DNA from: Anaerolineae bacterium
GTDB taxonomy: Bacteria > Chloroflexota > Anaerolineae > Aggregatilineales > Phototrophicaceae
Length of the DNA stretch: 64,000 nt
Assembly (NCBI GenBank): GCA_025454525.1
Contig: JALOOG010000002.1
Span: forward strand, 1-64,000
Reading direction: 5' to 3'
The translations under genes were made by a program, and so were the position numbers. Positions 12,593-23,772 of this stretch are shown here, piece by piece (position 1 is the stretch's first letter; the number at the start of each line of letters is the position of its first letter). The notes beneath the pieces are model-generated. The model searched no databases, had not been told where the DNA came from, and saw only the letters and a program-made list of their open reading frames with translations.

Positions 12593-12997
12593 ATGAATCG
12601 AACCAACGCGGATCAACTGTCAGGTGGTGTATTTTTTATCGGGTTAGCCCTAGTATTTCTAACAGGGTGGTGGTGGCCGGGGATCATGTTTGTGATCGGG
12701 GCGACGGCCCTCGCGCAAGCACTCGCTGAGGGACGGCGGTGGTATGCCGCGCAAGGCGCATTATGGTCCTTTGGGATCGGGGTTGTTTTTCTATTTGGAT
12801 TTAGCCTCCCATTGTTGTTTCTATTGATCGGCGCGGGCATGATCTTCGGGTGGTGGTCACGCGATTCTTGGGATGATGAGGATGAAGAATATGATGACGA
12901 AAAACCGAAAAACATCAGCACCGAACAGCAATATCGGGTAGGGGATGACGGCGAACTGATCCCGTATGATGAAGATCCGAAACAACAACGCCGTTAA
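12593..12997 (+). CDS. Small membrane protein with acidic tail, copy 1
   Basis: A 134-residue protein with about three hydrophobic segments holding the motif TGWWWPGIMFVIGA, an E-RRWYAAQGAL turn, then a strongly acidic cytosolic tail (DDEDEEYDDE). The arrangement is reminiscent of LiaI/LiaF-type membrane regions, but I cannot assign a family. The ATG at 12593 is preferred over one 21 bases upstream that lies inside ftsA. The next gene is a paralog. Confidence 0.6.
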   Translation: MNRTNADQLSGGVFFIGLALVFLTGWWWPGIMFVIGATALAQALAEGRRWYAAQGALWSFGIGVVFLFGFSLPLLFLLIGAGMIFGWWSRDSWDDEDEEYDDEKPKNISTEQQYRVGDDGELIPYDEDPKQQRR

Positions 12998-13000
12998 CCC

Positions 13001-13381
13001 ATGCGCTGCTTAATGCGCCCGTTCTTGTCAAAATACCTCCTGTCAGCGGGCGTGTTTGTGATCGGGTTAGCGCTATTGTCTTTAACAGGTTGGTGGTGGC
13101 CGGGCATTCTGTTTCTGTTCGGTGCAACCGCTTTCACCTATACCCTAGCTGAAAGGCGGCGTTGGTATGAGGCGCAATGGGCTTTATGTTTCATCGGGAT
13201 CGGGATCATCTTCTGGTCTGGGCCGAGTCTCCCGTTGATCTTGATCATCTTAATCGGCGGGATCATCTTCTGGATATGGGCATCATGGCATTTGTTTGAT
13301 GATGAAGAGGATTATGAATACCAACAACCGGACATTCGCATCAAACGCGAAGATCGCGTTGATGACGATGCGAAACAGTAG
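13001..13381 (+). CDS. Small membrane protein with acidic tail, copy 2
   Basis: A 126-residue paralog of the preceding gene: same GVFVIGLALLSLTGWWWPGI segment, ERRRWYEAQWAL turn, two further hydrophobic stretches and an acidic tail (FDDEEDYEY). Alignment to the first copy suggests the true start may be the ATG at 13013. Neither start has a clear ribosome site, so it may depend on translation of the upstream copy. Function unknown. Confidence 0.58.
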   Translation: MRCLMRPFLSKYLLSAGVFVIGLALLSLTGWWWPGILFLFGATAFTYTLAERRRWYEAQWALCFIGIGIIFWSGPSLPLILIILIGGIIFWIWASWHLFDDEEDYEYQQPDIRIKREDRVDDDAKQ

Positions 13382-19099: not shown

Positions 19100-19891
19100 T
19101 TAGAAGATATGACCAATCGCGATTAGGATCACAAACATCAACCCATAACCCACTTCTTGTACCCCGATCACCTTGGCCGGGCGCGCTTTACGCCATGCCG
19201 ATAAGCCTACCACGCATCGCACGGTCAAGACGGCCATCGCGATCAACACCGTCCAGATCAAGATCCCCGTCCCAACCGCGATCGCAAACAACCCGAAACC
19301 GATCCCGTGCGCGATGATCGGCAGATCGCGTCGGATCGTCTCACCGCGTTCTAAGCGCAATCGGGCGCGCACATAAAACACCGCGCCAATCCCCTTCACC
19401 GCTAAGGCAAACCAGAGCGCTAAAGCGATGATCCCTGGCCATCCCTGAATCAAGGTGAAAATGGTGACGATCACACCGGGGACACTGGCACCGATCACCT
19501 CGGCCCGGAGATCGCGGCCCTGATAGCGTAGATCATCGTACAATTGCCAAGCGATCAACGGGAGCGCGATCAACAAGGGCCATAACACCGTCCAGGCGAC
19601 TCCGGTCAAGAGAAAACCGAGTCCGGCGATCAACGCGATCCCGCCATAGATCAGGATAAACCGACGGGCGATCCACGTTCGGGGGACATGACGATGCGCG
19701 ATGCGGTCTTTGAGCCACACTTTGAGCGGTTGACGCAATAAAAACAGCGCTAAGGCGGTGATGCTCAACATGACACCGGCCGCACTAGGCGCGATCATCA
19801 ACCCCAACACGATCGGCTCACCGATAAATCCCCAACCCCCATGTTCGGTAGGAAGTGCGATCGTGCGCCAGCGTATCAACTTGGTTTTCAT
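19100..19891 (-). CDS. YwiC-like membrane protein
   Basis: A polytopic protein of 263 residues with about eight membrane helices. The start ALPTEHGGWGF-GEP is the hallmark of YwiC-like proteins, and the RQPLK-W motif follows near residue 64. The ATG at 19891 has AAAGGATG 7 bases upstream. In Bacillus subtilis, ywiC lies beside the narK-fnr nitrate respiration genes; here it lies 90 bases downstream of nirK on the same strand. The function of the family is not known. Confidence 0.8.
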   Translation of the reverse strand: MKTKLIRWRTIALPTEHGGWGFIGEPIVLGLMIAPSAAGVMLSITALALFLLRQPLKVWLKDRIAHRHVPRTWIARRFILIYGGIALIAGLGFLLTGVAWTVLWPLLIALPLIAWQLYDDLRYQGRDLRAEVIGASVPGVIVTIFTLIQGWPGIIALALWFALAVKGIGAVFYVRARLRLERGETIRRDLPIIAHGIGFGLFAIAVGTGILIWTVLIAMAVLTVRCVVGLSAWRKARPAKVIGVQEVGYGLMFVILIAIGHIF

Positions 19892-19981
19892 CTGTACATC
19901 CTTTAAACGCAACAGCGACCCCCACATTTGGATCGCTGTTGCCTACCACTACCATCACATTCGTTTTGTTCGCAACGCGGA

Positions 19982-21520
19982 TCAATGTCCTGCGTCGTTC
20001 ACCATCTCATCACTATGGAACACCGCGGGGTTATCAGCGCCGTCCACATACAAGAACCCAACTAACCCACGCTCTAAGCGGCTTAACGCATGATCCACGA
20101 GGATATAACGCCCCGGCACTTCTAGCGCAAATTCCACCATGGTTGCGCCCCCCGGTGCGACTGTCGTCGTCTGCACATCGGTGAGCGGCGGCGCGGTAAT
20201 CGACGCTTGATCATACACGCGGTCAAAAATTTCGCCGATCACATGGAAAGAAGAGGTCGCATTCGGCCCACCGACCCCAAAGTAAATCCGTACCGTTTCG
20301 CCGACTTCGGCGCGCAGGGCAAATTCATCTTGAGCCAAACCACCGGCCGCGCCATTGAATACGTAAAATTCGGGGTCTTCATCCAACATTTTCTCATGGC
20401 TAAAGTCTAAGTGTCCAGTCGTGCCGAAAGGTTGTTCGGTGTAGATCTCGCCTTGCATCACGTAAAATTCACGATCCACCGTGGGTAAACCGCCGGCCGG
20501 TTCAACCAAGATCAAGCCATACATGCCAGAGGTGATGTGATGCGCTACGCTAGGAGTCGCGCAATGATACACATACAAGCCCGGTTGCAACGCTTGGAAC
20601 GTGAATGATGTTTCACCGCCCGGCATCGTTTGTGTATAAACCGCGCCACCGCCCGGCCCCGTCACCGAATGCAGATCGATCGAGTGTGGCAGTTGACTAT
20701 CGCTTTGATTGGCAAGGTAAATTTCGACGGTATCCCCTTCACGAACGCGAAGCATCGGCCCCGGTACTTGTCCGTCAAACGTCATATACCGATAAGTGCT
20801 ACCATCTGCCAAGATCCCATTGACTTCTACCGCGTTGAGGTCAAAGCGCACGGTTTGCGGCCCGCGATCCCCTACAGAGGGCGGCACATCGGCCGGATTT
20901 CGCACGATCGACACCGCATCAGCAATCGCCGGGGCTGCTGTAGTTTCCGCAGCTGGTACAGCGGCGGTGTAATCGCCCGCAGGTTGCGATTCTTCGGTTC
21001 CAACGGTGGTCGTTTCACTGGCGATCACCCGAAACACGCCTTTCATGCCGATGTCACGATGCCCAGGGATCGAACAATAATACTCAAAGTCCCCTGCTTG
21101 TGAGGCCACAAATTCTAACACGACCGTTTGTTCATCGGCGTTCATTTCGCCTGTATACGCACCAAATTCATCGATCTTGAGGTCATGTAAAACCGGATCG
21201 CCGTTGATCACGGTAAGACGCACCGTATCCCCTTGATTCACCACCAATTCCGGATTGACCACCCCATCGATCGCACCACCGACCCCCACAAATGCCATTG
21301 CCGGAGTCCCGCCGATTACCATGCGTAGGGTAAATTCAACGGTTTGGGCTTGCGCGCTCACGGTCTCGTTATGAGGATGCGCTTGGGCGCGGGCAACCGC
21401 AGTTTGCTCTTGCGCGTCTACGGTGATCAATTCGATCCGAATTGGCAGTAACGCTAATACCAAGAATGTGATAGCGCCCACCACAACCGCCACAAAATTA
21501 GAACTAAGCTGCTTACTCAT
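19982..21520 (-). CDS. nirK: Copper nitrite reductase with N-terminal cupredoxin domain
   Basis: NirK reduces nitrite to nitric oxide outside the membrane. The 512-residue protein has an N-terminal membrane anchor or signal (about residues 9-31), then an extra cupredoxin domain (about 60-170) with type 1 copper ligands in VLHDLKI and YYCSIPGHRDIGMKG. After an Ala/Thr-rich linker come the two NirK cupredoxin domains: PHSIDLH (type 2 His), VYHCATPSVAHHITSGMYG (type 1 Cys, His, Met plus type 2 His) and SSFHVIGEIFD (third type 2 His). The extra domain could pass electrons to the core. It overlaps the ferredoxin gene by four bases. Confidence 0.92.
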   Translation of the reverse strand: MSKQLSSNFVAVVVGAITFLVLALLPIRIELITVDAQEQTAVARAQAHPHNETVSAQAQTVEFTLRMVIGGTPAMAFVGVGGAIDGVVNPELVVNQGDTVRLTVINGDPVLHDLKIDEFGAYTGEMNADEQTVVLEFVASQAGDFEYYCSIPGHRDIGMKGVFRVIASETTTVGTEESQPAGDYTAAVPAAETTAAPAIADAVSIVRNPADVPPSVGDRGPQTVRFDLNAVEVNGILADGSTYRYMTFDGQVPGPMLRVREGDTVEIYLANQSDSQLPHSIDLHSVTGPGGGAVYTQTMPGGETSFTFQALQPGLYVYHCATPSVAHHITSGMYGLILVEPAGGLPTVDREFYVMQGEIYTEQPFGTTGHLDFSHEKMLDEDPEFYVFNGAAGGLAQDEFALRAEVGETVRIYFGVGGPNATSSFHVIGEIFDRVYDQASITAPPLTDVQTTTVAPGGATMVEFALEVPGRYILVDHALSRLERGLVGFLYVDGADNPAVFHSDEMVNDAGH

Positions 21521-21747
21521 GATTTTCCCTCTTTCAATGGATCAATATTAATAACTAGGTAGGGCAATTCGATCGACTCGGTGGGACAGAGTTCCTCACA
21601 GCACGCACAATAGATACATTGAGCAGGAGACAATAAAGCGACCTTATCATCGCGCCATCCCAGCGCCCCAGTCGGGCAACTGAGGATACACGCGCCGCAC
21701 CCAATGCAACGCTCCCCCGTAATCAATGGAAACCATTCCCCGTCCAT
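21517..21747 (-). CDS. 2[4Fe-4S] ferredoxin
   Basis: A 76-residue bacterial-type ferredoxin. Two cluster-binding motifs are complete: CIGCGACILSCPTG (near residue 14) and CIYCACCEELCPTE (near residue 44). No signal peptide, so it is cytosolic. Its stop overlaps the nirK start (ATGA), so the two are coupled. Because NirK acts outside the membrane, direct electron transfer is doubtful; a regulatory or maturation link is possible. Confidence 0.9.
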   Translation of the reverse strand: MDGEWFPLITGERCIGCGACILSCPTGALGWRDDKVALLSPAQCIYCACCEELCPTESIELPYLVINIDPLKEGKS

Positions 21748-21805
21748 CTCATCGCCTCTTTCCTATGACTTACTTTGATGGTAGTGGCAAAGGGAAGCAG
21801 TGTAT

Positions 21806-21819
21806 TTAAGCTGGCTTAA
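21806..21819. promoter_or_regulatory. 14-bp palindrome upstream of ferredoxin-nirK
   Basis: TTAAGC-TG-GCTTAA is perfectly symmetric and lies 59-72 bases before the ferredoxin start on the - strand. Its layout (two short half-sites in 14 bases) resembles Fnr/Dnr-type boxes, though the half-site differs from TTGAT. Confidence 0.5.
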
Positions 21820-21832
21820 GTTGACCCAGTGT

Positions 21833-21848
21833 TGTGAAATTTGTCACA
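21833..21848. promoter_or_regulatory. Perfect Crp-type operator upstream of ferredoxin-nirK
   Basis: TGTGAAATTTGTCACA matches TGTGA-N6-TCACA exactly, the known consensus for Crp. It lies 86-101 bases before the ferredoxin start and 20 bases after the end of the Crp/Fnr-family gene. It is the natural candidate operator for that regulator or for another cAMP receptor. Confidence 0.65.
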
Positions 21849-21867
21849 GTGAAGGAATGACATTCGT

Positions 21868-22530
21868 CTATAGCAAAGCAATGGAGCGGAGTTGTGCCTC
21901 GTTGATGATCTCAATGCGATGACGATTAAAGCGGATCGCACCTAGGGTTTCTAATTCCTTCAACACCACACTGATTGTTTGAGGGGTGGTATTCAGATAG
22001 GCGGCGATACTGGTTCGTGTCACTCCCGGCCCACTCAATTGAGGATCATTCGATTGTTTAAGGAGAAAACGCGCTAATCGCACCGTCACCGAATACAGCG
22101 CGAGGTCTTCGATCTGCCCGACTAAGGTGCGTACTCGCTTGGCTAACATCTGGATCACGCGCAAGGCAACCGACGGATTCCGTAGCAAGACCTGATGAAT
22201 CGCATCCGACGGCACTAACCACACCTCCACGCTTTCGCTGAGTGCGCCTGCGTTGGCGGGATTATCGCCGCGATCTAACGCGCCGATGTCGTTAAAGGTA
22301 TTACCCGGGCCGCAAAAGCGTAAAATGTGTTCGTTTCCGGCGGCACTCAACTTAAAGATTTTGACTCGCCCTGTTTCGACGATCCATAACCCTTGCGCGG
22401 GTTCACCTTCTAAAAACAGCACCTCACCCGCCTGAAAACGTTGTAAGGTCATCTGTTCACTCATATACTGAAAATCATCGGTGCTGATCCCTTCAAAATA
22501 GGGAATCATCCGCAAGTAATCCGTATTCAT
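21868..22530 (-). CDS. Crp/Fnr-family regulator, probable control of nirK
   Basis: A 220-residue regulator: N-terminal cyclic-nucleotide-like beta roll (about 1-115), dimer helix (SVALRVIQMLAKRVRTLVGQIE) and C-terminal winged helix (TRTSIAAYLNTTPQTISVVLKELE). Only one Cys (in RFCGPG) is present, so it cannot bind an Fnr-type Fe-S cluster; it is closer to the Dnr/NnrR style that senses NO. The recognition helix TTPQTISVV lacks the Crp R-E-x-x-x-R pattern, so its target is uncertain. The ATG at 22530 follows TAGGAG by about 5 bases. It lies immediately upstream of ferredoxin-nirK on the same strand. Confidence 0.85.
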   Translation of the reverse strand: MNTDYLRMIPYFEGISTDDFQYMSEQMTLQRFQAGEVLFLEGEPAQGLWIVETGRVKIFKLSAAGNEHILRFCGPGNTFNDIGALDRGDNPANAGALSESVEVWLVPSDAIHQVLLRNPSVALRVIQMLAKRVRTLVGQIEDLALYSVTVRLARFLLKQSNDPQLSGPGVTRTSIAAYLNTTPQTISVVLKELETLGAIRFNRHRIEIINEAQLRSIALL

Positions 22531-22620
22531 CCGACTCCTAACGCTAAAGCAAACCCAAACACCCATCATCCGACAGGTGTTTTACAGGCTATTTTAGCGT
22601 TAAATTTAGCGCGATTACAC

Positions 22621-23772
22621 CTATTGTTCTGGAACTTCGATCCCATAAACACTGACTGAATCACTCGGAGCAAAGTAATAACTGTTGAAACCAATGCCTG
22701 CTTTTAAGAGGCAAACGGGAACGTTAGGATAATTGATGCGGATCAAAGTCAGGCGGTGTTGACCAGGTTCTAAGTTGCTTAGATCAACCGTTACCGGAAG
22801 ATCGGTGTTGATCGTCCCCGGATTCACCGCGCCATAAAACGTCATTTGATCCGGTTGCACGGGAACTTGTTGATCGTTCAAGAGCATCATCAACGCCACA
22901 GTTTGATGATCGTGATTGGTAGAATTACTTGTCCCGCCGTAACCAAAGTGGATCTCAAATGATAGTTCATCGTGCGCTTGAAGATAAACATCAAAACCGG
23001 CCCATGTCTCGAGCGCATCGTTCAAAGTTACATTCAAGGTAATCCCGTTTTGGCTTCCCCTAAGATGTTCTAAGTCCACCTGTGGCATCACACGATATTC
23101 GCGTTCCATCGGTGGATGATAGCCTGCAAGCAATGTGACTCGTTGGACATAATTAGAATTTATACCATAACGCTGTAGAGGTGCATCTTCAACCCCGATC
23201 ACCAATAACTCATGCGTGCCAGAAGGTAAAGGCGGAAGTTGCATGGTAAAACGACCTTGCTCTTTTGGCCCCAAGGTGATCGCTTTGAACGCGGTATCTT
23301 CCGGTACATCGACAAACACATCGGTTAGCTGAATTTGATTTAGGAAAACGTAGTATCGGATCGTGATCGGAGTCACGTCCTCTGGTGCATGGTGATACAC
23401 ACGATATTCCCCTTGGAAGGGGACATCGGCTTCGACACGCGCTGTCCGATCCCCAACTAATTCGATAAAATTTGAGAAACTATCCACCTCAATGTTGTAT
23501 GCGACCCCTTGATCAAATGGGGGATCGGCAATCGACTCATCAAATGTCGCAGGTTGAAACATCCCCGGTGGGGGTTCATAAAAATCACAGAATCCGGTGT
23601 TCGGACTAGGGGTGATCTCAAGTTGTGAAAACGGGTCACTAATCGTGACCCATTCAGAAGTAGGTGTGGGTTCTTGTGAAATCGTTGGATGTTCACGAAA
23701 TAACATCCACCCTAATCCTATAAAACTGATCAAAAGCAACAAGCTCGCAAAGCTACGGGTTATAAACTTCAT
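22621..23772 (-). CDS. Secreted or membrane-anchored protein of unknown function
   Basis: A 383-residue protein with an N-terminal membrane segment (MKFITRSFASLLLLISFIGLG) and the rest outside. The mature part looks all-beta, with repeated strands and turns (for example FTMQLPPLPSGTHELLVIGVED and LSNLEPGQHRLTLIRI). Two Cys (in FCDFYE and VCLLKAG) could form a disulphide. I see no enzyme motif. AGAGGGG precedes the ATG by about 10 bases. It shares strand with the nirK block but is upstream of the regulator. Confidence 0.6.
   Translation of the reverse strand: MKFITRSFASLLLLISFIGLGWMLFREHPTISQEPTPTSEWVTISDPFSQLEITPSPNTGFCDFYEPPPGMFQPATFDESIADPPFDQGVAYNIEVDSFSNFIELVGDRTARVEADVPFQGEYRVYHHAPEDVTPITIRYYVFLNQIQLTDVFVDVPEDTAFKAITLGPKEQGRFTMQLPPLPSGTHELLVIGVEDAPLQRYGINSNYVQRVTLLAGYHPPMEREYRVMPQVDLEHLRGSQNGITLNVTLNDALETWAGFDVYLQAHDELSFEIHFGYGGTSNSTNHDHQTVALMMLLNDQQVPVQPDQMTFYGAVNPGTINTDLPVTVDLSNLEPGQHRLTLIRINYPNVPVCLLKAGIGFNSYYFAPSDSVSVYGIEVPEQ

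Follow-up and report, generated by a model that had tools for sequence, protein, structure and literature searches.

A putative locally regulated nitrite-reduction cassette

The window analyzed here, a 64,000-nt stretch of contig JALOOG010000002.1 from an Anaerolineae bacterium, contains genes for a Crp/Fnr-family regulator (crp), a 2[4Fe-4S] ferredoxin (fdx), a copper nitrite reductase (nirK), and a membrane protein of the YwiC family (ywiC), which probably form a locally regulated nitrite-reduction cassette that has its own Crp, carries the ferredoxin of this regulator in its operon, and has recruited YwiC for the handling of nitric oxide (NO). In the proposed mechanism, the Crp, which would resemble DNR or HcpR in behavior, would bind the palindrome TTAAG-N4-CTTAA ∼72 bases before fdx. 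We infer that the bound Crp would activate, rather than repress, fdx-nirK and probably also ywiC, and that the signal would be nitrite/NO or low oxygen. NirK would be exported and would convert nitrite to NO outside the membrane, while the ferredoxin would stay cytosolic as a member of the regulator's unit, either a redox or NO relay or an electron carrier, and would not be the donor of NirK. YwiC would be a UbiA-fold membrane protein in the nitrite/NO kit of the cell, which is encoded elsewhere next to genes for RIC, NrfHA, and iron uptake.

The first-pass annotation, an earlier set of remarks on this DNA, had placed the four genes in this order on one strand, with a 4-base overlap of fdx and nirK. 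Both statements hold, as the order of transcription is crp, fdx, nirK, and ywiC on the minus strand, the family matches of all four are clear, and the stop of fdx and the start of nirK share ATGA at 21517-21520. The spacing between nirK and ywiC is 54 bases. The cassette end given there, 22530, stands as a possible crp start (an internal ATG), and the longest crp frame reaches further, to 22569. Here and in the other loci, the genes of the neighborhood were taken as the longest open reading frames.

The arrangement exceeds chance, because the block recurs in relatives and because an overlap of 4 or 1 bases is kept in 18 of 29 fdx-nirK pairs. Among 35 nirK loci of the window's family, including the window itself, three begin inside nirK, which left 32 for the upstream counts. 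A ferredoxin immediately precedes nirK in 29 of these 32 loci (the others are L077, L082, and L088), and a Crp is upstream in 27. Other families of Chloroflexota contributed 28 nirK loci, and in none of them is such a ferredoxin in place; one (L269) has a weak ferredoxin match on the strand opposite to nirK, and several have a distant Crp (24%–31% identical) upstream. Hence, the ferredoxin before nirK belongs to the window's family.

The predicted operator code of the adjacent Crp

The Crp consists of cNMP_binding and HTH_Crp_2 domains. The four cluster cysteines of FNR were not found in it, as the longest frame has two cysteines and the frame from the 22530 start has one, and an FNR-type cluster was therefore rejected. 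A palindrome of the form TTNAN-N4-NTNAA with a score of at least 5 was found before fdx, or before nirK where fdx is missing, in 27 of the 32 loci of the window's family, beginning 63–126 bases ahead of the gene. With shuffled sequences, no more than 2% of the trials reach these scores. Two of the remaining loci have weaker boxes only (L066 and L075), and three have none by this rule (L071, L077, and L084). In the window, the box form TTAAGCNNGCTTAA occurs a single time in the 5.24-Mb assembly, at the fdx promoter, and the reversed pattern used as a control does not occur (0 matches). A CRP-type site, TGTGA-N6-TCACA, is perfect (10/10) only in the window and in L082 among the loci listed, and was rejected as a general operator for this reason.

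The third base of the box agrees with the residue that follows the helix serine of the adjacent Crp in all 24 loci that have both. The helix PETISR (also PESVSR and PETVSR) is paired with TTGA, TPQTIST with TTCA, and TPQTISV or its variant ending in N (also QTVSV) with TTAA. One genome (G430) has two cassettes (L065 and L067) with different pairs of helix and box. The varying helix position corresponds to R185 of CRP, and its variation fits the known CRP–DNA contacts. A tree of the Crp proteins was calculated from 25 of 27 rows, after two partial rows were dropped, with the helix residues masked; in this tree the T class is a single group with good support, and the R class is likewise a single group. 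That specificity positions correlate with DNA motifs in the Crp/Fnr family was already known, according to excerpts of an earlier study (PMC1274295).

The ferredoxin as a probable partner of the regulator

The ferredoxin of the window contains two CxxCxxCxxxCP motifs. It was searched for in 150 genomes of the class, 38 of which had a match, and the loci were counted among the best-scoring 30. In 18 of these 30 loci, and in 15 of the 26 that lie outside the window's family, the gene that directly precedes the ferredoxin, in the same orientation, encodes a Crp; the four from the window's family are L328-L330 and L351. The remaining 12 have no Crp immediately upstream or have it in the opposite orientation (L351). 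In two of the loci that lack an adjacent Crp (L338 and L343), TTGAT-type boxes precede the ferredoxin gene. The genes that follow the Crp–ferredoxin pair vary and, as named by eye, include a hemerythrin (L332), a COX1-like gene (L336), protease-like genes (L340, L341, and L344), and a methyltransferase (L345); in L334 the ferredoxin is opposite to nrfHA-like genes, also named by eye. In the reciprocal view, a search with the Crp over 400 genomes gave, among its best 30 matches, eight with a ferredoxin 15–136 bases downstream and 22 without, although at one of the latter (L359) the contig ends.

Because the ferredoxin is often found behind a Crp outside the window's family, where mostly other genes come after it, it looks from these neighborhoods like a part of the regulator's unit rather than of NirK. 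The same observation takes the support from the suggestion of the first-pass annotation that the ferredoxin is coupled to the extracytoplasmic enzyme. Direct feeding of NirK by the ferredoxin would be consistent with the overlap of their genes, in the window and in the other pairs that keep it. It is highly improbable, however, as the ferredoxin has no export signal and NirK has a hydrophobic N terminus, the ferredoxin follows Crp elsewhere mostly without nirK, and 3 of 32 nirK loci of the window's family do without it. The compartments and the Crp pairing elsewhere led us to reject the ferredoxin as the electron donor of NirK.

Within the regulator's unit, two roles of the ferredoxin were weighed. 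It could carry electrons in the cytosol to an enzyme of nitrosative stress, as FrdX presumably does for Hcp, and could have entered the nirK operon through a shared need when NO is made. This role is a real possibility, if somewhat short of probable. It is suggested by the hemerythrin or cytochrome-like genes, identified by eye, after the Crp–ferredoxin pair in other families, and by the HcpR regulons, which, in the excerpts of PMC1274295, hold the ferredoxin-like frdX, hemerythrins, cytochromes, and nrfHA. What argues against it is that the downstream genes change while the Crp stays, and that Hcp (Prismane) has no match in the window's own genome and was found in only 2 of 98 genomes of its family. 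As Hcp is nearly absent, the partner of such a carrier would have to be another enzyme, and an HcpR/Hcp circuit was rejected. Alternatively, the ferredoxin could be the sensing half of a split FNR, in which the cysteine-poor Crp reads the state of a distinct, O2- or NO-labile 2[4Fe-4S] protein. The adjacency of Crp and ferredoxin in many Chloroflexota families, the presence of at most two cysteines in the Crp, and the absence of one second-cluster cysteine, as judged by eye, from several relatives outside the window's family are consistent with such an arrangement. This explanation is nevertheless unlikely, as 22 of the best 30 Crp relatives lack an adjacent ferredoxin, fdx comes after the operator, as expected of a target gene, and HcpR1 itself binds heme, as stated in PMC5701242.

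NirK is of an ordinary, already known type

The nitrite reductase scored 342.7 bits against the NirK equivalog model TIGR02376 (cut-off 296.3), and its N-terminal part also matches PF00127. The closest solved structures, 6tfd and 2dv6, both align across the extra cupredoxin and the core, and the N-terminal type 1 copper site is complete (H112, C149, H154, and M159). The extra N-terminal type 1 copper domain described in the first-pass annotation is therefore confirmed. The core motifs HSIDLH, YHCATPSVAHHITSGM, FHV, and DHA were found, with the ligands assigned by NirK numbering. The hydrophobic N-terminal segment, judged by eye, may be an export signal or a membrane anchor. Matches to this NirK with E values of 1e-59 or better were found in 30 of 98 genomes of the window's family. 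The NirK of the window is an ordinary, already known type; excerpts of a previous report describe NirK with an N-terminal cupredoxin, Herpetosiphon included, and give the role of the extra domain as unknown (PMC4770552), and a Chloroflexi NirK with a C1 cytochrome and an N-terminal cupredoxin is mentioned in a passage of another (PMC8756737). In L064 (633 residues) and L089 (573 residues; genomes G420 and G421), the NirK frames match the N-terminal cupredoxin twice, which suggests two cupredoxin domains ahead of the core in these predicted proteins.

YwiC is linked to nitrogen-oxide genes

The YwiC of the window scored 78.9 bits against PF14256 (gathering cut-off 25). This family was found in 48 of 98 genomes of the window's family and above the cut-off in 57 of 400 genomes of the phylum, and YwiC is also present in B. 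subtilis. The first-pass annotation likened the window to the gene order narK-fnr-ywiC in B. subtilis; for that species, only the presence of YwiC was observed here. The neighbors of YwiC were surveyed in loci that included 80 of 275 confirmed ones from named genomes and two of 25 Thermus plasmid records. After near-copies at 95% identity were dropped, 122 of 146 loci remained, which are near relatives of the YwiC of the window; 84 of them were counted as Chloroflexota, with phylum labels taken from record titles. These loci yielded 748 neighbors at distances up to 3 kb and 463 at more than 5 kb; 120 of the latter were drawn as a far control.

The neighbors of YwiC are not random, and a survey of them was the test that had been named beforehand for the proposed link to nitrogen-oxide genes. 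Among 118 genes immediately upstream of YwiC there were 18 with Hemerythrin, 14 with ScdA_N, eight with Cupin_2, eight ABC permeases, three with FeoB, two with cytochrome c552, and two multicopper (NirK) proteins, and in the 120 far control genes (at least 5 kb away) Hemerythrin, ScdA_N, Cupin_2, and FeoB were each found at most once and ABC permease twice. The tested hemerythrin neighbor is RIC (TIGR03652, 238 bits, cut-off 204.7). RIC is near YwiC in 16 loci, and the RIC/hemerythrin cluster is on the strand of YwiC in 15 of 15 near loci. Six of 122 loci have NirK ahead of YwiC on its strand (four within 3 kb and two more within 5 kb), and NrfA with NrfH is near YwiC in three. Altogether, RIC, NrfA, NirK, NirS, or NorB is present within 5 kb in 26 of 122 loci, and in none of the 122 were RIC, NirK, or NrfA found beyond 5 kb. 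Crp is found within 3 kb of YwiC in 19 loci, compared with four that have it beyond 5 kb. On a plasmid of T. thermophilus SG0.5JP17-16, Rrf2, DUF542, and a cupin-like gene precede YwiC, with nitrite reductase and a heme-copper oxidase-like gene adjoining, and in Thermus HB27 it follows cytochrome P460 and MarR. Within the window's family, YwiC is behind nirK in the window, close behind it in L065, and further away in L163, L078, and L074, and it is behind nrfHA in L156, L200, and L204. The link of YwiC is hence wider than nitrite reduction and includes RIC, NrfHA, the Thermus nir-nor genes, Crp regulators, cupins, and iron uptake. Text searches of the literature, as far as the listed papers go, gave nothing on YwiC with nitrite and only a table entry for YwiC in subtilis; the matches to YwiC alone were names and unrelated words, those to YwiC with narK were unrelated words, and those to DUF542, YwiC, or PF14256 were apparently mostly a surname.

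Several further contexts of YwiC were observed. An ABC importer, read as ferric iron-type, flanks it in about 11 Chloroflexota loci (L141, L152, L159, L167, L229, and L246 among them) and FeoB in three; iron uptake is a second recurring context. In 12 loci of Acidobacteriota (L198, L210, L214, L225, L226, L251, and others), the gene after YwiC on its strand encodes a pyridoxal phosphate-dependent decarboxylase, and DUF7009 is near YwiC in nine. In L078 (5684-7021) and L163 (1032-2030), the gene upstream of ywiC overlaps it by 4 bases and encodes a membrane protein; the two proteins belong to one cluster and look NnrS-like by eye, and the one from L078 has no Pfam or NCBIfam match.

Some of the data weigh against the proposed cassette. 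The 24 agreements of box and helix are not independent, as the four helix classes need four changes on the Crp tree, and because these changes are few, the independent specificity switches are also few, two or three. Promoter- and terminator-like sites were scanned for and occur at about chance level. The RIC link is mostly confined to one phylum (15 of 16 loci are from Acidobacteriota, the other from Thermus), and the ScdA_N protein is absent from the genome of the window. In most genomes of the window's family that have both genes, ywiC is elsewhere than nirK. The co-presence of YwiC and NirK is strong over the 98 genomes (p 6e-5) but is no longer significant (p 0.17) when 34 genomes of genus g245, which mostly lack both, are set aside, and it was consequently rejected as evidence. 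Matching boxes are not enriched just ahead of ywiC (2 of 119 stretches, compared with 17 of 2380 controls); only its position therefore suggests that ywiC is co-regulated, and its co-transcription with nirK would be a possibility.

The predicted fold of YwiC

PF14256 is the sole match of YwiC at E 0.01 or better, with none to PF01040, and no solved structure is related to it by sequence. A model built from 79 sequences had a predicted local distance difference test (pLDDT) value of 94.1 and a predicted template modeling (pTM) score of 0.88. Foldseek matched this model to UbiA enzymes with template modeling (TM) scores of 0.57–0.58, with weak E values and mixed with soluble prenyl synthases. 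In VIA-align, the top seven matches were UbiA enzymes over 233–244 of 275 residues, headed by UBIAD1 (Z 14.7), DGGGP synthase (13.0), and AfUbiA (12.2–12.4), and soluble prenyl synthases had values of 11.3 and lower. As helical bundles reach ∼13 by chance in this comparison, the match is a strong hint of a UbiA-like fold in the model, rather than proof. In the window, a weak PF01040 (UbiA) match below the cut-off, with one internal stop codon, is also present at 12965-13315 on the plus strand.

The UbiA-like fold raises the alternative that YwiC is a working UbiA-type prenyltransferase, for quinone, heme, or lipid modification, and is regulated by NO by happenstance. The seven structural matches are in line with it, yet we regard it as unlikely, as YwiC has no match to PF01040, the comparison of sequence profiles of YwiC and UbiA is weak (probability 12%), and the aspartate motifs of UbiA are not conserved. 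These motifs are NDxxDxxxD and DxxxD. The profile comparison, in which the template L294 is a heme O synthase (TIGR01473), puts D74 and YVRxRLR of YwiC near the two aspartate motifs of the template; only D74 is kept (72 of 79 sequences), and arginine is present in the second region. The residues that are fully conserved in YwiC are A24, P26, H29, G30, W32, P38, P67, A87, and G255.

The ideas on ferredoxin and YwiC could also be joined. A split Fe-S regulator of Chloroflexota, made of Crp and an NO/O2-sensing ferredoxin, would have been captured by nirK, and its DNA code would have diverged, to the point that one genome has two cassettes that read different boxes; YwiC, a UbiA-fold protein without the prenyl-transfer residues, would act with RIC, where RIC is present, in protecting or repairing iron, heme, or quinone cofactors against NO. 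This combination is quite unlikely.

Locus layout and significance

The coordinates of the cassette are collected in Table 1. The next gene downstream of ywiC is rsgA, and upstream of crp, at 22621-23772 on the minus strand, there is a 383-residue protein with a signal-like N terminus and no Pfam match.

Table 1. Genes and sites of the crp-fdx-nirK-ywiC locus (window positions)
Feature	Description	Position	Strand	Basis or remark
crp	Crp/Fnr-family regulator, recognition helix TPQTISV, without the FNR cysteine set	21868..22569	(-)	Alternative start 22530
CRP-type site	Perfect TGTGA-N6-TCACA, upstream of fdx	21833..21848	(-)	Sequence
Palindrome	TTAAG-CCAG-CTTAA, predicted operator of the adjacent Crp	21806..21819	(-)	Box scan, helix match
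fdx	76-aa 2[4Fe-4S] ferredoxin, without signal peptide, 4-base overlap with nirK	21517..21747	(-)	Motifs, family match
nirK	Copper nitrite reductase, extra N-terminal type 1 copper domain, hydrophobic N-terminal segment	19982..21520	(-)	TIGR02376, PF00127
ywiC	PF14256 membrane protein, predicted UbiA-like fold	19100..19927	(-)	Pfam, structure model

YwiC is a membrane family without known function, for which the neighbor survey suggests a role in NO handling, RIC being the most frequent upstream partner among the loci sampled. The survey together with the predicted UbiA-like fold makes the function of YwiC testable in easy hosts, for example B. subtilis and Thermus. The Crp–ferredoxin unit, with its three operator versions, is a clean system for the change of DNA specificity in Crp-family regulators, and it prompts one to ask whether a ferredoxin could act as a detachable sensor.

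Comparison with known systems

The NirK of the window is like the Hyphomicrobium denitrificans-type enzymes (2dv6 and 6tfd) in the order of domains, in both type 1 sites, and in the type 2 site, and differs from them in the hydrophobic N terminus, the Chloroflexota host, and the overlapping upstream fdx. YwiC may share with the UbiA superfamily (UBIAD1 8djk, DGGGP synthase 6m31, and AfUbiA 4tq3) a helical membrane fold, predicted over nearly the whole length, but it lacks the aspartate motifs for magnesium and diphosphate and has no sequence-level match. RIC/YtfE/ScdA, the group of iron-center repair proteins, is a partner of YwiC rather than a relative, as RIC is its immediate upstream neighbor in Acidobacteriota. 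The regulator resembles the denitrification regulators DNR and NnrR, which are also of the Crp family, lack Fe-S cysteines, and adjoin nir genes. The TTGAT-N4-ATCAA version of the box equals the consensus FNR/DNR box, whereas the box of the window reads TTAAG/CTTAA and the unit includes a ferredoxin. As in HcpR-FrdX, a CRP/FNR-family regulator is next to a ferredoxin-like gene in the window and its relatives, the DNA motif shifts with the recognition helix, and hemerythrin, cytochrome, and nrfHA belong to the HcpR regulons. In contrast to that system, the regulator of the window would target nirK in a genome without Hcp, and it is the helix position after the serine that varies (R, T, V, or N), beside the two positions named for HcpR.

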